This document shows positions 4,240 to 63,863 of a DNA stretch of 64,000 bases, piece after piece. Position numbers and translations under genes: made by a program. Every line of letters starts with the position of its first letter. The stretch's first letter is position 1. Under the pieces are notes generated by a model, which did no database searches, was not told where the DNA came from, and saw nothing but the letters and a program-made list of their open reading frames with translations. The stretch is from Heloderma charlesbogerti. Lineage: Eukaryota; Chordata; Lepidosauria; Squamata; Helodermatidae. The stretch is taken from positions 724,501-788,500 of the forward strand of contig JANEZZ010000986.1 of the NCBI GenBank assembly GCA_026122225.1, in the 5' to 3' direction.

Positions 4240-4458
4240 TAGGGATGGCAGAGAATTCCACCACGGACCCCAATGAGGCTGGATTCTTTGGACAGCCTCT
4301 GGAGTCCGTGGCAGAATGTAGCACTTACCTCTGCCTCCCTCCAGAATCCGTCTGAGCTGGCTCCTCCATGTGGCGATCCTGCGTAAATGGCTACATTTAG
4401 GTTAATCTAACATCTTTATGGCCGCAAATGGCATCCAATATGCCATTTGCATCTGGAG
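4240..4458 (+). mobile_element. Left end of a hairpin-tree hAT-like element, interrupted
   Basis: The segment starts TAGGGATGGCAGAGAATTCC, the left terminus of the hairpin-tree family. It continues through the left terminal stem (TTCCACCACGGACC ... GGAGTCCGTGGCAGAA) and a CACTTACCT splice-donor complement. It ends with a divergent B-type hairpin, CGCAAATGGCATCC / ATGCCATTTGCATC, at about 4,424-4,453. A second element starts immediately at 4,459, so this copy is either cut by that insertion or truncated. Its right end was not found. Confidence 0.7.
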
Positions 4459-4845
4459 TAGGGATGTCAGATAATTCCGCCAGGGACCCCCAGAATCCAT
4501 GGCGGAACGGTATCCCCACCACCACCCTGTGGAATCCCCCAGGACGGAGCTTACCTGGCGGCAGATGCGGCGACGGCTCCGGCTGGTCTCCCGGCCGCTG
4601 CTGGATTGCTGCGGCCACAAATGGCGGCCGTTGTAGCAGCCGCCATTTGCATGGCTTCCTTTTGCCGTGATAGGCTATGTAAATACTTATGTAGCCTATC
4701 ACGGCAAAGAGCAGGGGCACAAATGGTGGCCGCTACGCCATTTGCGCCCCTGCTCTTTGCCATAATAGGCTACATAAGTATTTACGTAGCCTATCATGGC
4801 TTGGCAGCCACGCAAATGGCAGCCAGCATAGCCGCCATCTACCTA
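4459..4845 (+). mobile_element. Hairpin-tree hAT-like element, right-truncated
   Basis: This copy starts TAGGGATGTCAGATAATTCC at 4,459. The left terminal stem is followed by a minus-strand splice donor (complement of GCTTACCTGG) near 4,548. Then come alternating hairpins: B-type around 4,617-4,652, A-type at about 4,661-4,708, B-type around 4,720-4,750, A-type at 4,757-4,802, and half of a B-type. The sequence stops matching at about 4,838-4,845 inside that B hairpin, so the right end is lost. The following 100 bases are a CTGCCTC-rich degenerate repeat. Confidence 0.75.
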
Positions 4846-7836: not shown

Positions 7837-8408
7837 TGGGGATGTATGAATCCCTTACCTGGCTCCATGCAGGGGCATCCGCGGTGGGGGGGAGGCTCCG
7901 TCCCTCTCCCCGGAATCCTCCCTGGCTGGCTCTGCTCTGCAGTGGCTCCACGGAGCCACCGGCCGGGGCTGTCCGCAGCCGGCGTTCTGGCCACGGATGG
8001 GCTGCTGCGGCCACAAATGGCAGCCAATGTAGTGGCCGCCATTTGCATCCTTGCAAGCAGCCATGATAGGCTACGTAAGTATTTACATAGCCTATCATGG
8101 CAAAGAGCAGGGACGCAAATGGCATAGCGGCCGCCATTTGCGTCCCTGCTCTTTGCCGTGATAGGCTAACGTAAATACTTACATAGCCTATCAGGGCTGC
8201 AAGGGCGCAAATGGCGGCCACAGCAGCCTGGCCCCGGCCAGCCAGGAGACCAGCTGCCACCGCCGGAGCCACCCCAGGTAAGTTCCGTCACGGGAGGATT
8301 GCATGGGGGGGCGGGGGGGGGAGTCCGTTCCGCCATGGATTCCGGGGGTCCGGATTCTTTAGAATCTGGCCTCACTGGAATCCGTGGTGGAATTCTCTGA
8401 CATCCCTA
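7837..8408 (-). mobile_element. Hairpin-tree hAT-like element, minus orientation
   Basis: The copy is complete but inverted relative to most others. It starts TGGGGATGTATGAATCCC (right terminus, reversed) and ends GGTGGAATTCTCTGACATCCC plus TA. TTCATCAG flanks it exactly at 7,829-7,836 and 8,409-8,416, a perfect 8-bp target-site duplication. Inside are a B hairpin near 8,003-8,050, an A hairpin at 8,057-8,105, a B hairpin at 8,108-8,150 that forms the centre of symmetry at about 8,130, and a second A hairpin at about 8,150-8,197. A CAG/GTAAGT donor reads outward near 8,275. At 572 bp it is the shortest complete copy. Confidence 0.88.
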
Positions 8409-15992: not shown

Positions 15993-16847
15993 TAGGGATG
16001 TTAGAGAATTCTGCCACGGATCCCAGGGAGGCTGAATTCCAGTGAATTTGGCCCCCTGGAATCCATGGCAGAACAGAGCAGCCCGCCCCACCACCCCGCG
16101 AAAGCCCCACGAAATGGATCCTACCTGGCGGTGGCGGCTTCAACAGCAGCAGCAGCGGTGGCAGCTCCGGTGGCGGCTCCGGCAGCGGCTCCAGCGGCAG
16201 CAGCAGCTTCGGCGGCTGTAGCCGCTGCCAGGCTGCAGCCACAAATGGCGGCCACTATGCCAGCCACCATTTGCGTCCCTGGCAAGCGTGATAGGATACG
16301 TAAGTATCTACGTAGTCTATCACAGCTCATGGCAGGGAAGCAAATGGTGTAGCCACCGCCATTTGTGTCTCTTGTGTCTCATTTGCGTTCCATGATAGGC
16401 TACGTATATATTTACGTAGCCTATCACGGCAAAAGACAGGGGCGCAAATGGCATATCGGCCGCCATTTGCGCCCTTGTCTTTTGCCATGATAGGCTGCAT
16501 AAATATATACATAGCCTATCACAGCAATAGGAAGGAGTACAAATGGCGGCCGCCGTAGCCACCGGCATTTGCGTCCATGTCTTTAGCCGTGATAGGCTTC
16601 ATATATATTTATATAGCCTATCATGGCTAAAGACACAGATGCAAATGGCAGCAGCTATAGCGGCCGCCATTTGCGTCCCTGTGCAGCCCAGTGGCAGGAT
16701 GTCCGGCTGCAGGAGGCCCCAGCTGGCGGCTCCGTGGAGTCGCCATGGAGCGGAGCCAGCCAGGGAGGATTCTGGGGGGGGACAGAGCGCCTCCCCCCCC
16801 CACAGATTGCCTGACGCAGAGCCAGGTAAGAGTTTGGTACGTCCCTA
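15993..16847 (+). mobile_element. Hairpin-tree hAT-like element beside the larger element
   Basis: It starts TAGGGATGTTAGAGAATTCT and ends GTTTGGTACGTCCCTA. GGTATAAC flanks it on both sides (15,985-15,992 and 16,848-16,855), the same 8 bases that flank the neighbouring element at 11,294. After the left stem comes a GGC/CAGCAG-rich tract at 16,126-16,225. A hairpins lie at about 16,288-16,326, 16,389-16,432, 16,485-16,527 and 16,588-16,628, with B hairpins between them. The centre of symmetry lies near 16,457, in the B stem GCGCAAATGGC / GCCATTTGCGC. Confidence 0.9.
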
Positions 16848-29128: not shown

Positions 29129-29994
29129 TAGGGATGTCAGAGAATTTCGCCATGAATCTTGGGGAGGCCGAATGCCAGCGCATTCGGCCCCCCAAAATCG
29201 GTGGAGAAACGGTCTGCCACACCCCCCCGGGACGGGACTTACCTTCGGCGAAACTTCCTGGCGGCGGCGGCTCCGGCTCCGGTGGTGGTTCGGTGGTGGC
29301 GGCTGTGGCGGCCGGTCTTCCGACCAGCTGCCGCCACTGTCATTTCCAAGTTTAAAAAAAAAAAAAACACATGATAGGCTACGTAAAGATTTACATAGCC
29401 TATCATGGCTAAATTTTAAAAAACACCGTGATAGGCTACGTAAATGTTTACGTAGCCTATCACGGCTGAGTAAAAACAAAAATAAAAAATGCGCGTATGC
29501 AAATGGCGGCACCCATGGGTGCCACCATTTGCGTGCCTTATTTTGGCATGTCTTAGTCTACGTAAACATTTACGTAGACTACGGCGAAAATAAGGGGAAT
29601 GGAAATAGCGTAGACGCTACGCTATTTGCGTTCCCCTTATTTTCGCCGTAGTCTACATAAATGTTTATGTAGATTAAGATGTGCCAAAATAAGGCACGCA
29701 AATGGTGGCACCCATGGGCGCCGCCATTTGCGTATGCGCGTTTTTTGTTTTTGTTTTTACTCAGCCGTGAAAGGCTACGTAAACATTTACATAGCCTATC
29801 ACGGCTGACTGCAGGGACGCAAATGGTGGCGGCTATGGCCGCCGCCATTTGCGAACCCGGCCAGCCAGAATTCAGGGGGGGGGGAGGGACGGAGTGCCTC
29901 CCCCCTGGCCAGAATTTCAGGGGGAGGGACGGTGCACCTCCCCCCCACCTCAAATCAATTTCGTTAAAAGGTAAGTGACTTTCGTACATCCCTA
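29129..29994 (+). mobile_element. Hairpin-tree hAT-like element in CR1
   Basis: This is a complete copy. It starts TAGGGATGTCAGAGAATTTC, ends TTTCGTACATCCCTA, and is flanked by a perfect CTTCCAAG duplication (29,121-29,128 and 29,995-30,002). A hairpins lie at 29,370-29,408, 29,427-29,466 and 29,763-29,804; B hairpins at 29,495-29,535, 29,695-29,735 and 29,816-29,851. GTCTACGTAAAC-type stems surround a centre at about 29,612 (GCGTAGACGCTACGC). Units on the left are answered by the reverse complements of the same units on the right for roughly 190 bases each way. A GGC-rich tract lies at 29,258-29,330. Confidence 0.94.
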
Positions 29995-30374: not shown

Positions 30375-31232
30375 TAGGGATGTCAGAGAATTCTGCGATG
30401 GATTTCGGTGAGGCCAAATGCCCCCGAAATCCATCATGGAACGAAGCCCCCGCCTCCCCCAACCCACGAAAGTTGCGCGAAACAGAGCACTTACCTGCTC
30501 CCGTCAGCACGGACTTGCGAATGGCAGCCGCCCTGCGGCCACCATTCGCTTCTTCTTCACGGCTGTGATAGGCTATGTAAATACATACGTAGCCTATCAC
30601 GGCTAATGCAGGGACGCCTTTTGCGTCCCTGCAGAGGCTGTGATAGGTTACGTAAGTATTTACGTAGCCTATCACGGCAGGCTTTTAAAAAAAAACACAC
30701 ATACACAAATGGTGGCGGCTACGGCGGCCACCATTTGCGTTCTGTATTTTTCGCCGTTTTAACCTACATAAATATTTACATAGGCTATTACGGCCAATAA
30801 AAGGGGAACGCAAATGGCGCCCACTACGTCATTTGAGTTCCCCTTTATTTCGCCGTAATAGCCTACGTAAATATTTACGTAGGCTAAAATGGCGAAAAAT
30901 ACAGAACGCAAATGGCAGCCACTTTAGCCGCCGCCATTTGCGTACGCGTTTTTTTTTTTAAGCCTATCACAGTTCACTACAGGGATGCAAGTGGTGGCGG
31001 CTATGGCCGCCGCCATTTGCGTCCCTGTTGCCCAGCGGCTGGATGTCCGGCTGCGGGCGGAGCCGGCCAGCGGCTCCGTGGAATCGCCGCGGAGCGGAGC
31101 TGGCCGGGCAGGATTCAGGGGGGGTGACCGGAGCGCCTCCCCCCCATCAAGGATTCCGGGGGGAGGGACGGAGCGCCTCCCCCCCGCCACAAATGAATCT
31201 GCAAAACGGTAAGTGACTTTCATACATCCCTA
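30375..31232 (+). mobile_element. Hairpin-tree hAT-like element in CR1, first of a tandem pair
   Basis: It starts TAGGGATGTCAGAGAATTCT and ends TTTCATACATCCCTA. The left flank GATTCGTC (30,367-30,374) and right flank GATTTGTC (31,233-31,240) match at 7 of 8. A hairpins lie at 30,563-30,604 and 30,637-30,679, B stems at 30,702-30,740 and 30,908-30,946, and variant stems flank a centre near 30,825. A further B stem lies at 30,984-31,026. A half A hairpin (AGCCTATCACAGTTC) at 30,961-30,975 shows a deletion on the right side. CAG/GTAAGTG on the minus strand near 30,495 and GGTAAGTGA near the right end are the outward donors. Confidence 0.92.
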
Positions 31233-31240
31233 GATTTGTC

Positions 31241-32187
31241 TAGGGATGGCAGAGAATTCTGCCATGGATTCCAGTGCGGCCAGATACTTTATAATCCGGC
31301 CCCCTGGAATCCGTGGCAGAACGGCCTCCTGCCCCCCCGCCCCCCTGTGGAATTCCCCTGGGACAGCACTTACTTGGGGTGGATGCAGCGGATTTGGCGG
31401 CAGCTCCGGCGGCGGCGGCTCCGGCGGTTGGTCTCCTGGCTGGCTGCGGCAGGGCTGCTGCCGCCGCCATTGCCATCCTTGGACCGTGATAGGCTACATA
31501 AGAATTTACGTAGCCTATCATGGCTAACCTAAAAAAAAAACCACGCAGCATATGCAAATGTTGGCGGCTATGGCCTGTTTTTCGCTGATTTACCTTACGT
31601 AAATATTTACGTAAGATAAAACGGCGAAAAAAAAGGGGAATCCAAATAGTGTAGTGGATGCTATTTGCGTTCCTTTATGTTTTGCCGTTCTAGCCTATGT
31701 AAATATTTACATAGTCTAGAACGGCGAAAAATAAAGGAACACAAATAGCGTCCACTATGCTATTTGCGTTCCCCTTTTTCCCCCGCCATTTTATCTTACA
31801 TAAATATTTACGTAAGATAAATTAGCGAAAAATAGGGAATGCAAATGACGGCCACTGTAGCCGCTGCCATTTGTGTACGCTGCATTTTTTTGTTTTTTTG
31901 AGGTTAGCCGTGATAGGCTACGTAAATTCTTACATAGTCTATCATGGCTCTCTGGCTGGATGCAAATGGCGGCCGCTACAGTGGCCGCCATTTCCATCCG
32001 CACCAGGCCGTCCACGGCCAGAAATCCGGCTGCAGACGGCCCTGGCTGGCTGCTCCGCAGCCTGGCTGCGGAGTGGAGCCGGTTGTCGAGGATTCCGGGG
32101 GGAGGGATGGAATCCCTACCGCAAAAGATTCCTCCCCCCTACCGCGAAAGATTCTGCGAAAAGGTAAGTGACTTTCGTACATCCCTA
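31241..32187 (+). mobile_element. Hairpin-tree hAT-like element in CR1, second of a tandem pair
   Basis: It starts TAGGGATGGCAGAGAATTCT directly after the 8 bases that follow its neighbour, and ends TTTCGTACATCCCTA. Right flank GATTCATC (32,188-32,195) resembles the flanks at 30,367 and 31,233. A hairpins lie at 31,485-31,527 and 31,906-31,948, with a centre at about 31,705 in the stem CTAGCCTATGTAAATATTTA. Stems in between use TTACGTAAATATTTACGTAA-type sequence. The left side keeps only half of its B hairpin near 31,550. A GGCGGC-rich tract lies at 31,395-31,440. Confidence 0.92.
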
Positions 32188-32577: not shown

Positions 32578-32585
32578 GTGCCCAG

Positions 32586-33606
32586 TAGGGATGGCGGGGA
32601 ATTTCTCCATGAATCTTCGGGAGGCCGAATGCCAACACATTCGGCCCCCCGAAATTGGTGGGGAAATTCTTCGCCGGTCCTCCGCCCCCCCAGATGGGAC
32701 TTACCGTGGCCGAATGTCCCTCTCGGCGACGGGTCCCGGCAGCAGTTTGGCGGCGTTTCGTCGGGGGCGGGGGCGGCGGCCGGTCTCCCGAACGGCTGCC
32801 ACTGCCTCCATTGCAAAAAAAAAAAGTAAATTAAAAAAAAACACACACACCCGTGATAGGCTACGTAACGATTTACGTAGCCTATCACGGCTAGATTTCC
32901 AAAGTCAGCCGTGATAGGCTACGTAAATTGTCACGTAGCCTATCACGGGTGACTTTGAAAAAAAAAAAGCGCGTATGCAAATGGCGGTGGCACATGGGCG
33001 CCGCCATTTGCGTTCCTTATTTTGGCACGTTTATCTACGTAAACATTTATGTAGACTACGGCAAAAATAAGGGAACGCTATTTGCGTTGCCCTTATTTTC
33101 GCTGTAGTCTACGTAAATCTTAACGTAGACTAGACTTGTCAAAATAAGGAACGCAAATGGCGGTCCCCATGGGAGCCACCATTTGCGTACGCACTTTTTT
33201 TTCCCCCAAAGTCACCCGTGATAGGCTACGTGACAATTTACGTAGCCTATCACAGCTGACTTTGGAAATCTAGCCGTGATAGGCTACGTAAATCGTTACG
33301 TAGCCTATCACGGCTGACTTTGGAAGTCTAGCCGTGATAGGCTACGTAAATCGTTACGTAGCCTATCACGGGTGTGTGTGTGTGGTTTTTTTACTTTTTT
33401 TTTCACGGCCGGGTAGACGGGGTGTTCCTACCCGGCCTGAATTTCGCTGGCGAGGGATGGGGTGCCTCTCCCCCGGCCTGAATTTTGGCCGGGCGAGGCG
33501 GGGCGCCTCTCCCCCCTCGCCTGAACTTCGGGGGGAGAACCGATGCACCTCCCCCCCACCGTGAAGCAAGCTTCAAGAACAGGTAAGGGACTTTCGTCCA
33601 TCCCTA
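32586..33606 (+). mobile_element. Hairpin-tree hAT-like element, largest and most symmetric copy
   Basis: It starts TAGGGATGGCGGGGAATTTC and ends TTTCGTCCATCCCTA, with a perfect GTGCCCAG duplication (32,578-32,585 and 33,607-33,614). A hairpins lie at about 32,851-32,891, 32,908-32,949, 33,216-33,257, 33,274-33,315 and 33,331-33,371. B hairpins lie at 32,977-33,013 and 33,155-33,191. All are arranged around a centre near 33,081. The A unit at 32,908 has the loop AAATTGTCACG and its mirror at 33,216 has CGTGACAATTT, the exact complement. The intervening CTTTGGAAATCTAG-type spacers are mirrored too. The last A unit on the right is an extra direct duplicate. Confidence 0.94.
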
Positions 33607-33639
33607 GTGCCCAGCTATCTCCGTGAGTCTGCATAACTT

Positions 33640-41249: not shown

Positions 41250-41545
41250 AAGGGGCAATCCTATGCATGTTTAGCCACCAGCTGGCTCCGAAGCGCCAGC
41301 GATATGGCCGCCATGCCATATCGCTGGCTGAGGGGTATTGACTGACTGTGGATGCAAATGGCATCCAGGACGCCATTTGCATCCATAAAGATCTTAGTTT
41401 GAGGTAAATGCAGCTGTAAATGGCTGCATTTATGTGGACCGGAGCCAGCCGAAGAGGATTCCAGGGGGAGGAACTGATTGCCTCCCCCCCACAGGCGGAT
41501 TCCCCATGGACCAGCAGGTAGGGAATCCAATCCACCCATCCCTAG
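41250..41545 (+). mobile_element. Truncated hairpin-type hAT-like element, right end
   Basis: The right end GGTAGGGAATCC ... CCACCCATCCCTA stops at 41,545. Small stems typical of the family lie upstream: GGATGCAAATGGCATCCAGG with GACGCCATTTGCATCC at 41,350-41,387, and GCAGCTGTAAATGGCTGC near 41,409. A stem GCGATATGGCCGCC / CATATCGC lies at 41,298-41,326. The left part merges into a TTTAAGGGGCAATCCTATG repeat end at 41,248. The left terminus of the hairpin-tree family is absent. Confidence 0.6.
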
Positions 41546-45900: not shown

Positions 45901-46334
45901 AATGCAATATATTCTTTTCTTGCATATAAATCTTATACAGATGTGGATTGTTTGATTTACTTTTCGTATCCAAAGCAATATCTTTCTTAGGGTAATATCA
46001 GAATAGGTTTGAATGACAGAACAGAATGCAAAGAGATTACATCATTAAAAATAGATGTAATCTTGTTTTACCTAAAGCTATCCTGTTTCAGATTTCTTCT
46101 AAATCTAGAAGAAATAATAAGAAGAGCATTGTCTGATCAGACCAAAGTTCCATCTAATCTAGTATAGTGTTTCCAGCAATGGCCATCCAGATCCCTCTAG
46201 GAAGGCAAGAAGCAGGACATAGAGGGAACAATACTTTCCTGCTATTTCTCTCCAGCATCAGGTTGTCAGGTCTATATTGCCTCTGACATGGAGTTTCTAT
46301 TTAGTTATCATAGCTAAATCAAATTAACAAGAGC
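42921..46334. other. Unassigned sequence
   Basis: No gene or complete repeat was found in these 3.4 kb. A short AAC run lies at 45,849-45,869. The segment 44,430-44,620 has repeat-free AT-rich texture like a conserved non-coding element, but nothing can be shown. The frames at 44,393-44,581 and 45,374-45,664 lack domains. Confidence 0.35.
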
Positions 46335-48137
46335 AAGGAGAGACAAGAAGGCTTTCTTAAATGAACAATGCAAAGAAATCGAGGAAAACAACAGAATGGG
46401 AAAGACTAGAGATCTCTTCAAGGAAATCGGAGATCTCAAGGGAACGTTTTGTGCAAAGACAGGCATGATAAAGGACAAAGAAGGCAGGGACCTAACAGAT
46501 GCAGATGAGATTAAGAAGAGGTGGAAAGAATACACAGAAGAACTATACAGGAAAGATCTTAATGTCCCTGATAGCCATGATAGTGCGGTCACTGAACTTG
46601 AGCCGGACATCCTAGAGAGTGAAGTCAAGTGGGCCTTAGGAAGCATTACTAACAACAAAGCTAGTGGAGATGACAATATTTCAGCTGAGCTATTTAAAAT
46701 CCTAAAAGATGATGCTGTTAAAGTGCTGCACTCAATATGCCAACAAATTTGGAACACTCAACAATGGCCGCAAGACTGGAAAAGGTCAGTTTACATTCCA
46801 ATTCCAAAGAAGGGCAACGCCAAAGAGTGTTCAAACTACCGCACAATTGCGCTCATTTCACATGCCAGCAAAGTGATGCTCAAAATCCTACAAGCTAGGC
46901 TTCAGCAGTATGCGAACCAAGAACTACCAGAAGTACAAGCTGGGTTTCGAAGAGGCAGAGGAACTAGAGATCAAATCGCCAACATTCGCTGCATCATGGA
47001 GAAAGCAAGAGAATTCCAGAAAAACGTCTATTTCTGCTTCACTGACTACGCTAAAGCCTTTGATTGTGTGGATTACAACAAACTGTGGCAAATTCTTAAA
47101 GTGATGGGAGTACCAGACCACCTTACCTGTCTCCTGAGAAACCTGTATGAGGGTCAAGAAGCAACAGTAAGAACCAGACATGGAACAACCGAGTGGTTCA
47201 AAATTGGGAAAGGAGTACGACAAGGCTGCATATTGTCACCCTGCTTATTTAACTTATATGCAGAGTACATCATGAGAAATGCCGGGTTGGATGAATCAGA
47301 GGTCGGAATTAAGATTGCTGGGAGAATTATCAACAACCTCCGATATGCAGACGATACCACCCTAATGGCAGAAAGCGAAGAGGATCTCAAGAGCCTCTTG
47401 TTGAGGGTGAAAGAGGAGAGTGCAAAAGCTGGTTTGAAACTCAACATTAAAAAAACTAAGATCATGGCATCTGGCCCCATCACTTCCTGGCATATAGAAG
47501 GCGAAGAAATGGAAGCAGTGACAGATTTTACTTTCTTGGGCTCCAAGATCACCGCAGATGGTGACTGTAGCCATGAAATTAAAAGACGCTTGCTCCTTGG
47601 GAGGAAAGCTATGGTAAACCTAGACAGCATAGTAAGAAGCAGAGACATCACCTTGCCGACAAAGGTCCGTCTAATCAAAGCTATGGTTTTCCCAGTAGTA
47701 AAGTATGGCTGTGAGAGCTGGACTATAAGGAAGGCTGAGCGCCAAAGAACTGATGCTTTCGAACTGTGGTGCTGGAGAAGACTCTTATGAGTCCCCTGGA
47801 CTGCAAGGAGGTCCAATCAGTCAATCCGAAAGGAAATCAACCCTGAGTGCTCATTGGAAGGACAGATACTGAAACTGAAGCTCAAATATTTTGGCCACCT
47901 AATGCGAAGAGAAAACTCTCTGGAAAAGACCCTGATGCTGGGAAAGACTGAAGGCAAAAGGAGAAGGGGACGGCAGAGGATGAGATGGCTAGATAGCATC
48001 ACCGATGTAATGAATATGAACTTGAGCACACTCCGGGAGAGAGCGGAGGACAGGAAGGCCTGGCGTGCTATGGTCCACGGGGTCACGAAGAGTCGGACAC
48101 GACTGAACGACTGAACAACAACAACAACAACAACAAA
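46335..48137 (+). mobile_element. BovB (RTE) LINE, 5'-truncated
   Basis: The copy begins abruptly inside ORF2 at about 46,335 (KKAFLNEQCKEIE) and continues to the typical BovB 3' end. There, GGGGTCACGAAGAGTCGGAC is followed by ACGACTGAACAAC and an (AAC)n tail at 48,114-48,137. BovB belongs to the RTE clade and is known for horizontal spread among squamates and ruminants. The truncation at the 5' side is usual for target-primed reverse transcription. A second, rearranged copy lies at 60,453-63,863. Confidence 0.95.
46349..48114 (+). pseudogene. BovB ORF2: reverse transcriptase and C-terminal domain, one stop
   Basis: The frame is open from the truncation to 47,790, and its first ATG is at 46,396. 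Counting from that methionine, reverse transcriptase motif A is FTDYAKAFD at residues 215-223, motif B is RQGCILSPCLFNLY near 275-288, and the catalytic YADD is at 317-320. NIKKTKIM and FLGSKIT follow. A TGA at 47,788-47,790 replaces the arginine codon CGA that the second copy has at this place (RRLLRVPW context), a CpG-type change. After it, the same frame continues to 48,114 with GHLMRRENSLEKTLM and KAWRAMVHGVTKSRTRLND. The endonuclease is missing through truncation, so the copy is inactive. Confidence 0.9.
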
Positions 48138-50684: not shown

Positions 50685-51312
50685 TTTCGCTTCTTCATCA
50701 TAGCCATGATAGGCTATGTAAGTATTTACATAGCCTATCACAGCAAGCCAAAAACAACAACAACAGCATATGCAAATGGCGGCGGCTATGGCGGCCGCCA
50801 TTTGCGTTCTCTATTTTTCACCGTTTTAGCCTATGTAAATATTAACGTAAGCTACTGTGGCGAAAAAAAAAAGGAATGCAAATAGCGCCCACTACGCTAT
50901 TTGTGTTCCCCTTTTTTTTGCCGTAATAGCCTACATAAATATTTATAAATATTTATGTAGGCTAAAACAGCGAAAAATAGGGAATGCAAATGGCGGCCGC
51001 TGTAGCCGCCATTTGCGTACGCTGTTTTGTTTTGTTTTTTGGCTTGCCGTGATAGGCTACGTAAATACTTACGTAGCTTATCATGGCAACTTCGCTGGAC
51101 GCAAATGGCAGTCGCTATGGCAGCCGCCATTTGCGTCCGTAGCAGCCCGTCTGAGGCCAGAACTCCGTCTGCGGACAGCCCTGGCTGGCGGCTCTGTGGA
51201 GCCGCCACGGAATGGAGCCGGCCCAGTGAGGATTCCAGGGGGAGGGACGGAGTGCCTCCCGCCCACCACGAATCCAAGCTGCAAAAATGTAAGTGACTTT
51301 CGTACATCCCTA
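50685..51312 (+). mobile_element. Hairpin-tree hAT-like element, left-truncated
   Basis: The copy begins in mid-element at TTCGCTTCTTCATCATAGCC, matching 30,547 in another copy, and ends TTTCGTACATCCCTA at 51,312. A hairpins lie at 50,703-50,745 and 51,046-51,088; B hairpins at 50,770-50,807, 50,984-51,019 and 51,098-51,137. The centre is near 50,892 in the stem AATAGCGCCCACTACGCTATT-like sequence. The left terminus with its stem and donor has been lost. The element ends inside an A hairpin of the next copy. Confidence 0.85.
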
Positions 51313-51567
51313 GGCTACGTAAATATTTACGTAGCCTGTCACGGCGAAAAAAAGGGACGCAAATGACGGCGGCTATGGTGGCTGCCATTTGCGTCCCTGC
51401 TCAGCCCAGCAGCGGCCAGATGTCGCTGCGGGCGGCCCCGGCTGGCAGCTCCGCAGAGTTGCCATGGAGTGGAGCCAGCCAGCGAGGATTTCGGGGGGAG
51501 GGACGGAGCGCCTCCCCCCTCACAGATGTCACAAAATGAAACAGGTAAGTCGTTTCGTACATCCCTA
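51313..51567 (+). mobile_element. Right part of a second hairpin-tree element
   Basis: It starts within an A hairpin, GGCTACGTAAATATTTACG, directly after the end of the previous copy. It continues with a B hairpin at 51,357-51,397 and a right arm, CAG/GTAAGT, to the terminus TTTCGTACATCCCTA at 51,567. The simplest reading is that the copy ending at 51,312 inserted into this one, at GGCTACGT, and that a later deletion removed the left parts of both. Confidence 0.78.
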
Positions 51568-60452: not shown

Positions 60453-61799
60453 GATGTTGTTCAGTCGTTAAGTCATGTCCGACTCTTCGTGACCCCATGG
60501 ACCATAGCACGCCAGGCCTTCTTGTCCTCCACTCCCTCCCCGAGGGTGCTCAAGTCCATATTCATTGTATCTGTGATGATCTAGCCATCTCATCCTCTGC
60601 CGTCCCCTTCTCCTTTTGCCTTCAATCTTTCCTAGCATCAAGGTCTTTTCCAGGGAGTTTTCTCTTTGCATTAGGTGGCCAAAATATTTGAGCTTCAGCT
60701 TCAGTATCTGTCCTTCCAATGAGCAGTCAGGGTTGATTTCCTTTAGGATTGACTGATCTGACCTCCTTGCAGTCCAGGGGACTCGTAAGAGTCTTCTCCA
60801 GCACCACAGTTCGAAGGCATCAATTCTTTGGCGCTCTGCCTTCCTTATAGTCCAGCTCTCACAGCCATACACTACTGGGAAAACCATAGCTTTGATTATA
60901 CAGACCTTTATTGGCAAGGTGATGTCTCTACTTCTTACTATGCTGCCTAGGTTTGCCATAGCTTTCCTCCCAAGGAACAAGCGTCTTTTAATTTCATGGC
61001 TACAGTCACCGTCTGCAGGTGATCTTGGAGCCCAAGAAAATAAAATCGGTCACTGCTTCCATTTCTTCCTCTTCTATATGCCAGGAAGTGATGGGGCCAG
61101 ATGCCATGATCTTAGTTTTTTTAACGTTGAGTTTCAGACCAGCTTTTGCGCTCTCAACTTTCACCCTCAACAAGAGGCTCTTTAGATCCTCTTTGCTTTC
61201 TGCCATTAGGGTGGTATCGTCTGCGTATCTGAGGTTGTTGATAATTCTCCCGGCAATCTTAATTCTGACCTGTGATTTCTCATGATGTACTCTGCATATA
61301 AGTTAAATAAGCAGGGCAACAACATGCAGCCTTGTCATACTCCTTTCCCAATTTTGAACCAATTTCCATGTCTGGTTCTTACTGTTGCTTCTTGGCCCTC
61401 CTACAGGTTTCTCAGGAGACAGGTAAGGTGGTCTGGTACTCCCATCTCTTTAAGAATTTTCTACAGTTTGTTGTGATCCACACAATCAAAGGCTTTAGCA
61501 TAGTCAATGAAGCAGAAATAGACGTTTTTTCTGGAATTCTCTTGCTTTCTCCATGATCCAGCAAATGTTGGTGATTTGATCTCTAGTTCCTCTGCCTCTT
61601 CGAAACCCAACTTGTACTTCCAGTAGTTCTCGGTTCACATACTGCTGAAGCCGAGCTTGTAGGATTTTGAGCATAATCTTGCTGGCATGTGAAATGAACA
61701 CAATTGTACAGTAGTTTGAACACTCTTTGGCATTGCCCTTCTTTGGAATTGGAATGTAAACTGACCTTTTCCAGTCCTTTAGCCTTGTGATACGTTCCA
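60453..61799 (-). pseudogene. BovB LINE copy 2: 3' part, minus strand
   Basis: The BovB 3' end lies at about 60,453, where the plus strand reads GATGTTGTTCAGTCGTTAAG, the complement of the usual terminus. Reading leftward on the minus strand from 61,777, frames give DWKRSVYIPIPKKGNAKECS, then GFRRGRGTRDQI, the KAREFQ stretch, a broken RT core (YADDTTLMAE-like wording at 61,190-61,240), FLGSKIT, and the C-terminal ENSLEKTLM near 60,640. Frameshifts near 61,010, 61,280 and 61,530 break the protein. The extreme 22 bases (61,778-61,799) come from the element's 5' UTR and are joined directly to ORF2. Confidence 0.9.
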
Positions 61800-63863
61800 G
61801 GGCCCCTTCATGGATCACTGCCTTGTTGTGGCAAAGGGGCTTGTGTAACTCAGTGAAGCCATAAGCTATGCCGTGCAGCAGGGCCACCCAAGACGGACAG
61901 GTCATGGTGGAGAGTTCTGACAAAATGTGGTCCACGGGAGAAGGAAATGGCAACCCACTCCAGTATTCTTGCCAAGAAAACCCCATGGAACGTATCACAA
62001 GGCTAAAAGCTATGACGCCGGAAGATGAGCCCCTCAGGTCGGAAGGTGTCCAATATACTACTGGGGAAGAGCAGAGGGAATTTCCAAGTAGCGCCAGAAA
62101 GAGTAAAGCGGCTGAGCCAAAGCCGAAAGAACACTCAGCTGTGGATGTCTCTGGTGGTGAAAAGAAAGTCCGATGCTGTAAAAAACAATATTGTTTAGGG
62201 ACCTGGAATGTAAGATCAATGAATCAAGGTAAGCTGGAGGTGGTCAGACATGAGATGGCAAGACTGAACATCGACATCTTGGGAATCAGCGAACTAAAAT
62301 GGACAGGCATGGGCGAATTTAATTCAGGTGACCATCATATCTACTACTGTGGGCAAGAATTCCTTAGAAGAAATGGAGTAGCACTCATAGTCAACAAAAG
62401 GGTGGGAAAAGCAGTACTGGGGTACAATCTCAAAAATGATAGAATGATCTCAGTACGAATCCAAGGCAAACCATTCAACATTCAACATCACAGTAATTCA
62501 AGTCTATGCCCCAACCACTGATGCTGAAGAAGCTGAGGTTGATTGGTTCTATGAAGACCTACAACACCTTCTAGAACTAACACCAAAAAAAGATGTCCTC
62601 TTCATCATAGGGGATTGGAATGCTAAAGTAGGAAGTCAAGAAATCACCGGGATAACAGGCAAGCATGGCCTTGGTGTACAAAATGAAGCAGGACAAAGGC
62701 TAATAGAGTTTTGCCAAGAGAACACGCTGATCATAGCAAACACTCTTTTCCAACAGCACAAGAGGCGACTCTACACATGGATATCACCAGATGGTCAATA
62801 TCGAAATCAGATTGATTATGTCCTTTGCAGCCAAAGATGGAGAAGCTCTATACAGTCAGTCAGTGGCTCAGATCATGAGCTTCTTGTTGCAAAATTTCGG
62901 CTTCAATTGAAGAACGTAGGGAAAACCACTAAACCATTCAGGTATGACCCTGATCCCTTATGAATATACAGTGGAGGTGACAAATAGATTTAAGGGATTA
63001 GACCTGATAGACAGAGTGCCTGAGGAACTATGGACGGAGGTCCGTAACATTGTTCAGGAGGCAGCAACTCAATCCATCCCAAAGAAAAGGAAATGCAAGA
63101 AAGCCAAGTGGCTGTCTGATGAGGCTTTGCAAGTAGCTAAGGAAAGAAGGGAAGTGAAAAGCAAGGGAGAAAGGGGAAGATATACCCAACTGAATGAAGA
63201 GTTCCAGAGAATAGCAAGGAGAGACAAGAAGGCCTTCTTAAATGAACAATGCAAAGAAATCGAGAAAAACAACAGAATGAGAAAGACTAGAGATCTCTTC
63301 AAGAAAATCGGAGATCTCAAGGGAACATTTTGTGCAAAAACGGGCATGATAAAGGACAAAGAAGGCAGGGACCTAACAGAAGCAGATGAGATTAAGAAGA
63401 GGTGGAAAGAATACACAGAAGAACTATACAGGGAAGAACTTAATGTCCCTGATAGCCACGATAGTGCGGTCACTGAACTTGAGCCAGACATCCTCGAGAG
63501 TGAAGTCAAGTGGGCCTTAGGAAGCATTACTAACAACAAAGCTAGCGGAGATGACAGTATTCCAGCTGAGCTATTTAAGATCCTAAAAGATGATGCTGTT
63601 AAAGTGCTGCACTCAATATGCCAACAAATTTGGAACACTCCACAGTGGCCACAAGACTGGAAAAGGTCAGTTGACATTCCAATTCCAAAGAAGGGCAATG
63701 CCAAAGAGTGTTCAAACTGCTGTACAATTCCACTCATTTCACATGCCAGCAAGGTAAGGTTATGCTCAAAATCCTACAAGCTAGGCTTCAGCAGTATGTG
63801 AACCGCGAACTACCAGAAGTACAAGCTGGGTTTCGAAGAGACAGAGGAACTAGAGATGAAATC
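61800..63863 (+). pseudogene. BovB LINE copy 2: 5' part, plus strand
   Basis: This segment opposes the 3' part head to head. It holds the 5' UTR (61,800-62,180) and then the APE-type endonuclease: CLGTWNVRSMNQGKLEVV at about 62,190, ELKWTGMGEF, and after a frameshift near 62,480 FIIGDWNAKVG at about 62,600 and the SDHELLVAKF motif at about 62,870. A second frameshift lies near 62,945, where one frame ends in TGA at 62,961 and another, 62,944-63,750, continues through GDLKGTFCAKTGM and PIPKKGNAKECSNC. BovB sequence runs to GTRDE at 63,860 and is cut there by a transposon. The endonuclease and N-terminal reverse transcriptase are therefore present but broken. Confidence 0.9.

Follow-up and report, generated by a model that had tools for sequence, protein, structure and literature searches.

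In a 64-kb stretch of Heloderma charlesbogerti DNA, hereafter the window, we found a family of transposon-like insertions that are flanked by 8-bp target duplications and carry arrays of small hairpins, and in eight copies the array is itself arranged as a large mirror whose two arms are not independent of one another. We consider it probable that this is a nonautonomous hAT-type family in which the mirror arose through an inverted duplication in one subfamily and was afterwards recopied, in inverted orientation, from arm to arm.

Layout of the focal element

The arrays are built from two alternating types of module, for which we coined the names A (with variants C and K) and B (with variant D). 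A-type modules centre on ACGTAAAT..ATTTACGT and B-type modules on GCAAATGGCGG or GCAAATAGCG; module orders were tidied by eye where a single half-site was missed or mixed. The focal element, E32586 (32586..33606, + strand), is a putative nonautonomous hAT-type copy with the core order A A B C D C B A A A. The limits proposed for it in the original prediction are exact: it starts with TAGGGATGG and finishes with CCATCCCTA, both of the TAGGGATG type, and the same 8-bp target site duplication (TSD), GTGCCCAG, stands without mismatch on either flank (32578..32585 and 33607..33614, both unstranded). A GC-rich hairpin, GGCCGAATG..CATTCGGCC, lies at the left end (32616..32653, unstranded). The outer left arm (32817..32962, +) comprises an A-rich stretch, a CA repeat, module A1, a spacer, and module A2, and is the putative donor of an inverted copy on the right side. 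It is followed by the inner mirror B C D C B (32969..33196, +), whose arms are identical at 92 of 106 positions, and by the outer right arm (33205..33403, −), which is left-type in reverse complement with one extra A unit.

The finer claims of the original prediction also held. The centre of the mirror, placed at about 33,081, was computed as 33082 by self reverse-complement alignment (score of 667, against a maximum of 35 in 20 dinucleotide shuffles). A units predicted at 32,908 and 33,216 were located at 32911-32946 and 33218-33253, and B units predicted at 32,977 and 33,155 near 32977-33011 and 33151-33188. The odd loop singled out on the left and its counterpart on the right are both present (AAATTGTCACG and CGTGACAATTT), and the spacers are mirrored, with the 22-base spacer between the two left A units recurring twice on the right in reverse complement (21/22 each).

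Members of the family in the window

A scan of the window for TAGGGATG...CATCCCTA pairs, with at most 1 mismatch in the ends and at most 2 in the 8-base duplication, returned 12 pairs, one of which spans two tandem copies, leaving 11 distinct elements of 572-1021 bp; seven outward-displaced offsets used as a control yielded 0-1 pairs. A twelfth two-ended copy with a duplication, E13918, was read from the sequence and brings the window total to 12. Pieces with a single end were found at 4240, 4459, 51312 and 51567 (right ends), and 63864, the last truncated at the window edge.

Eight copies are concentric (e.g., A B C D C B A), and their spacers are mirrored too. Besides the focal element these include the sister copies E29129 (29129..29994, +; TSD CTTCCAAG) and E18756 (18756..19653, +; TSD CTTACAGG/GTTACAGG), which share the order A A B C D C B A B, the latter with a B half-site before its first A. 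E14170 (14170..15149, +; A A B C D K D C B) lies within an A module of E13918, whereas E12595 (12595..13411, −; B A A B K D K (B lost) A B) has one inner B deleted. E30375 (30375..31232, +; B A B A B K D K B (A broken) B) sits inside a LINE reverse-transcriptase frame and stands in tandem, across one 8-bp target copy, with E31241 (31241..32187, +; B A B K D K D K B A B). The eighth, E50685 (also handled as E50690; 50685..51312, +; A B K D K B A B), is left-truncated: 50,685 had been taken for the start of a copy and is not an element start, the right end lying at 51312 and no left end being found. That right end adjoins GGCTACGT of an A module in an outer element that ends at 51567.

Five members are plain B-A-B-A chains. 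They are the outer part of E13918 (13918..15875, +; alternating A-B chain; TSD ATCTGAAG), which is split by E14170; E15993 (15993..16847, +; B-A-B-A-B-A-B-A-B; TSD GGTATAAC); E20388 (20388..21031, +); E7837 (7837..8408, −; TSD TTCATCAG); and E4459 (4459..4845, end approximate, +), for which only the left end was found and which lies inside a related element starting at 4240. A divergent relative, E24402 (24402..25033, +), has the same ends with no palindrome array and is possibly near the ancestral form of the family. Read by eye, it retains only one decayed hairpin-like stretch.

The terminal repeats of the family are of the TAGGGATG type, ∼8-9 bp long and present at both ends, and are putatively hAT-like, probably resembling those of Ac. 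An 8-bp target duplication is the rule for hAT elements in the passages cited (PMC4763223), and it was found in the 11 distinct scanned elements (at most 2 mismatches in 8) and in E13918. Ends and duplications together suggest the hAT type. No transposase was seen in the 18 (8 + 10) of the window's 79 reading frames of at least 110 codons that were searched with Pfam; the ten lie in or over family elements and matched no Pfam family above its cut-off. Given this result, the putatively hAT-like ends, and the 8-bp duplications, the family looks like a nonautonomous hAT-type one with a mirrored core, which appears to have been at least partly recopied. The elements also show features of MITEs, being short, multicopy, noncoding in the Pfam-scanned frames, and equipped with terminal repeats and duplications. 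They depart from foldback elements in that left and right ends agree closely over no more than ∼9 bp, the next 20 showing scattered matches, and in that the mirror is internal.

Hairpins at the first level

The elements are rows of small hairpins, as had been proposed. In the 14 family-element spans (11,695 bp) we counted 71 local hairpins (6.07/kb), compared with 15 in the remaining 52,305 bp (0.29/kb), and for hairpins scoring at least 16 the counts were 26 inside and 1 outside. Five hairpins outside the family spans score at least 12, and the two of these near 41300 probably belong to another family relative. This probable further member lies at 41295-41544 on the minus strand; its hairpins occupy 41295-41328 and 41349-41385, and TAGGGATG stands at 41537-41544. 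Folding as single-stranded DNA agreed with the counts, giving z values of −12.5 to −37.9 in 11 array-bearing elements (10-12 shuffles each here and in the following values); the array-less E24402 gave −2.9 and eight control windows −1.3 to 0.9. No known RNA family reached its gathering score across the whole 64-kb window, and the exact A palindrome had 0 matches in viral_contigs.

Among the 55 A-type modules (C and K included), 809 of 990 cells are paired, the maximum among 2000 half-permutations being 782. Double changes at paired positions number 64, against 21.1 expected under independence, and 44 of them are compensatory. We do not accept these changes as proof of selection, because the kinship of the modules inflates the counts and because the ACGT sites taken alone are near chance (∼7 compensatory against 4 not, counted by eye).

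The same covariation would favour an explanation in which the palindromes are subterminal transposase-binding arrays and selection on binding preserves both modules and symmetry. In the passages cited, hAT transposases use subterminal repeats, and a pair of these in Hermes forms a cooperatively bound quasi-palindrome (PMC10368747, PMC4763223). Apart from the inflated counts, this reading has to contend with a first module that begins 267 bases in from the left end of E32586, beyond the tips, and with E24402, which has the ends yet no array; nor does a common motif predict that both arms of a copy share private changes, as they do in the data described below. We regard binding as a rather improbable source of the symmetry.

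The large mirror tested against module order

Self reverse-complement alignments of the eight concentric copies scored 237-667, whereas shuffles (20 each) reached at most 38. The symmetry could nevertheless be automatic if the small palindromes were the sole real units and any row of alternating self-complementary modules read as its own mirror. Module order alone is weak evidence here, since, by our own count, 2 of the 18 arrangements that strict alternation allows for a set such as A B C D C B A are symmetric. We therefore compared, for each member, the score of the left arm aligned to the reverse complement of the right arm with its score against the right arm itself.

This mirror/direct ratio was 2.33 for E32586, 5.10 for E29129, 4.03 for E18756, 3.59 for E14170, 2.41 for E30375, 2.57 for E31241, and 3.50 for E50690, and 1.12 for E12595, which has the deletion. 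For the plain chains it was 1.10 (E13918), 1.28 (E15993), 1.51 (E7837), 2.09 (E4459), and 3.31 (E20388), so the two short-armed chains E20388 and E4459 reach ratios like those of concentric copies. On these ratios the large mirror is real in seven of the eight concentric copies (2.3-5.1), where nonpalindromic spacers and variant loops are mirrored as well and the second level is more than a by-product of palindromic modules. Automatic symmetry is contradicted for these seven, although it stands for the three of the five plain chains with ratios of 1.1-1.5, in which the mirror is largely automatic; the two further plain chains also exceed 2, on short arms. As an account of the mirror as a whole we find it very unlikely.

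The two-level plan that had been predicted is thus present in part of the family and is not general, five members being plain chains. Of the six further copies said to follow it, those at 29,129, 18,756, 14,170, 31,241, and 50,685 are concentric; the one at 15,993 is a simple alternating chain with a ratio of only 1.28. The centres came out close to their predicted positions throughout: 29616, 19238, 14717, 16467, 31718, and 50896 by computation, against 29612, 19238, 14718, 16457, 31705, and 50892.

Inverted duplications are also a recognised kind of sequencing artefact, and the mirror might be a foldback chimera of assembly or reads. Eight concentric copies stand at separate sites, seven of them two-ended with duplications, and the arms of E32586 differ in substitutions, gaps, and one extra A unit, leaving this explanation a negligible probability.

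Relationships of the arms across copies

We aligned the 16 arms of the eight concentric copies, all from one window, in alignments that are gappy over the modules. A single ancient inverted duplication that made the mirror, followed by passive inheritance with the arms diverging independently, would suit the concentric module order common to the eight copies, but the arm tree argues against it. Constraining the 8 left arms to one group lowers the log-likelihood by 101.7 units (p-AU of 2.7e-7), and with the three sister copies only, p was 0.011 for left arms together and 0.041 for right arms together. Arms pair within the copy in E32586 (95/91), E31241 (96/95), and, weakly, E14170 (85/83). The five others are not arm-paired in the best tree, and constrained tests, which covered E50690 (p of 0.19), E29129, and E18756 (p of 0.40 each), neither showed nor rejected pairing in these three.

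Private bases, defined as those in both arms of one copy and in at most one other arm, point the same way as the tree. They number 3 in E12595, 4 in E14170, 0 in E18756, 4 in E29129, 6 in E30375, 7 in E31241, 6 in E32586, and 2 in E50690, a within-copy total of 32 (mean of 4.0), whereas the 112 between-copy pairs have a mean of 0.69 and a maximum of 3. Only 2 of the 40,320 possible left-right pairings reach the total of 32, the true pairing included, and when a single sister was kept, 1, 1, and 2 of 720 reached the true total. Mean left-right identity was 81.5% within copies and 72.8% between them, a result matched by 5 of 40,320 pairings. Against copying between arms, the arms of E18756 share 0 private bases and the one wrong pairing that reaches the total outscores the true one (34).

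In raw identity, the two arms of a copy are each other's nearest in E32586 and E14170 alone (2/8); a nearer arm lies in another copy for both arms of E12595, E30375, E29129, and E18756 and for the right arms of E31241 and E50690. The sisters E18756 and E29129 have whole arms slightly closer by side (89.9 and 89.4% between copies) than by copy (86.3 and 88.0%), and their left arms pair in the tree (71/93). Their inner parts follow no clear pattern (104/116 and 108/119 within, 109/121 and 105/120 on the same side, 107/118 crosswise), and these two copies would fit plain inheritance of the mirror. The inner left arm of E32586 likewise resembles the left arm of E18756 (102/109) more closely than it does the right arm of its own copy (92/106; p of 0.11), so that the inner part would fit inheritance and not conversion. 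From this likeness by side we conclude that arm copying affected part of the arms in some copies. A purely inherited mirror is disfavoured by the arm tree and the private-base permutations even though it agrees with E18756, E29129, and the inner part of E32586; the left-type outer right arm of E32586, to which we now turn, also speaks against it, and we judge it unlikely. Independent inverted duplications in several sublineages would leave a trace much like that of arm copying.

A left-type tract on the right side of E32586

In the sisters E18756 and E29129, the right arm runs outward from A via TCCCTGCAGTCAGCC to an outer B hairpin, and such a B closes the chain in six of the eight concentric copies, the exceptions being E32586 and E14170. 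The right side of E32586 is without the sister-type outward part; in the place of the outer B hairpin it has, in reverse complement, the features of a left arm, namely one A-rich and one CA-containing stretch, an A module whose loop is left-type, the GGCTAGATTT spacer, and A2. The odd loop of the original prediction falls inside this tract. The outer left arm matches the reverse complement of 33205-33403 at 133 of 141 positions with 6 gap openings, and over A1-spacer-A2 the two arms agree at 108 of 111 positions, ungapped, in comparison with 92 of 106 over the inner B-C-D (Fisher p of 0.005).

Over the same A1-spacer-A2 stretch, the left arm of E32586 agrees at 90/107 positions with the left arm of E18756 and at 88/102 with that of E29129. 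Its right arm shares 89/108 with the left arm of E18756; the right arm of E18756 is alignable at 53 positions only, 47 of them identical. The agreement of E32586's own arms exceeds that of its left arm with the left arm of E18756 (108/111 against 90/107; p of 0.0008). As judged from the sequence, the simplest reading would be that ∼110-150 bp were copied from left to right, inverted, with ends near 32962/33205 and a tandem gain of one A unit, although the left-type tract may instead have come from a donor elsewhere in the genome. By our own reading both arms of E32586 carry the right-type form of the spacer's AGTCAGC end, and copying may in part also have run from right to left.

Proposed origin and maintenance of the mirror

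Private bases shared within copies, rejection of the by-side tree, and the left-type right arm of E32586 together lead us to propose that inverted copying from arm to arm extends the mirror. A hAT transposase acting in trans, none having been seen among the 18 window frames scanned, would mobilise the family. The core would be a chain of alternating palindromic modules, which inverted duplication in one subfamily turned into a large mirror made up of diverged module variants. Stretches would then be copied from arm to arm in reverse complement, making the mirror longer and its arms more alike, most clearly in the tract of E32586. The copying step is likely to be template switching or gap repair via a folded-back strand, at replication or after excision. 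In the passages cited, template switching creates and restores perfect hairpins by reverse-complement copying (PMC8794818), and in yeast a replication-fork block stimulates recombination between inverted repeats (PMC8748988).

A further-reaching version, which we advance only tentatively and think somewhat doubtful, is that the core is a palindrome maintaining itself at two scales, with arms that repeatedly overwrite each other and a mirror that grows outward, from hairpin to alternating chains to concentric arrays. New copies inserting into old modules might feed such growth (two of three nested insertions lie in A modules). The arms of Y-chromosome palindromes are overwritten from one another, and we liken the process to theirs at a scale of a few hundred bases.

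Long palindromes are usually unstable, yet this family carries nested ones across tens of kilobases, and its copies show traces of their making and extension. Given many copies of separate history, the rate, tract length, and direction of arm-to-arm copying in short palindromes could be measured, which bears on the origin of foldback and hairpin-rich elements. Arm copying predicts that arms cluster by copy, and not by side, in squamate genomes bearing the family.

Comparison with known elements

The family is like nonautonomous hAT elements with Ac/Ds-type ends in its 8-bp duplications and, probably, in its short TAGGGATG terminal repeats; a mirrored hairpin-array core is not known to us from any described hAT element. 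Bacterial REP/BIME sequences are also composite arrays of palindromic units in alternating orientation, but they are bacterial and depend on a different transposase, and we know of no concentric order of variants in them. The foldback element FB4 of Drosophila and Tetris share a modular, variable repeat content with our family, and homogenisation of repeats was suggested for Tetris; as described in the passages cited, however, FB4 is palindromic at its extremities and Tetris combines terminal inverted repeats with ∼220-bp internal repeats (PMC4079207, PMC4022104), whereas in our family the terminal repeat spans ∼9 bp and the mirror occupies an internal part that is built of palindromes. Galileo is similar in its 7-8 bp duplications, variable structure, and palindromic insertion motif; it is set apart by its description, in the passages cited, as a member of the P superfamily without an alternating palindrome chain (PMC4168063). 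The template-switch hairpins of Monttinen and Loytynoja (2022) are likewise made or repaired by reverse-complement copying, but the parts of that work cited concern RNA genes and stems (PMC8794818), and here the tract is ∼110-150 bp inside a transposon.

In the open-access literature we recognised no description of the mirrored hairpin-array plan among the matches listed, and a sequence-word search of the literature gave no such element by title among the matches listed. The "nested palindromes" of PMC1925063, considered as an instance of the same plan, are in the passage cited a hypothetical deletion series in a Stowaway element.

Insertion events and LINEs

When E30375 and E31241 were removed in silico, one LINE reading frame ran continuously through the junction, and the halves flanking the pair match adjacent parts of Pfam RVT_1, positions 9-55 (E-value of 0.0008, below the curated cut-off) and 60-156 (6e-14). 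At 30375-32187 the three target copies around the tandem pair read GATTCGTC, GATTTGTC, and GATTCATC.

E14170 sits within an A palindrome of E13918 (TSD CGTGATAG), and similar nesting is suggested at 51312, where only a right end was found, and at 4459, where only a left end was found. Two of these three insertions, 14170 and the one with its right end at 51312, fall within A modules, and that at 4459 lies beside a B module; the nested insertions being too few (rough binomial estimate of ∼0.1), we claim no insertion preference for A modules.

The LINE domains seen by Pfam in the window are reverse transcriptase and endonuclease only, and the LINE protein gave 3 pattern matches in viral_contigs, 0 of them confirmed. 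We presume the LINEs of the window to be of RTE/BovB and CR1 types, whose joint presence would point to a squamate source. A long reverse-transcriptase frame, presumably RTE/BovB-like, occupies 46318-47790 (RVT_1, 1.1e-38), and related-looking frames are found at 60468-63801.
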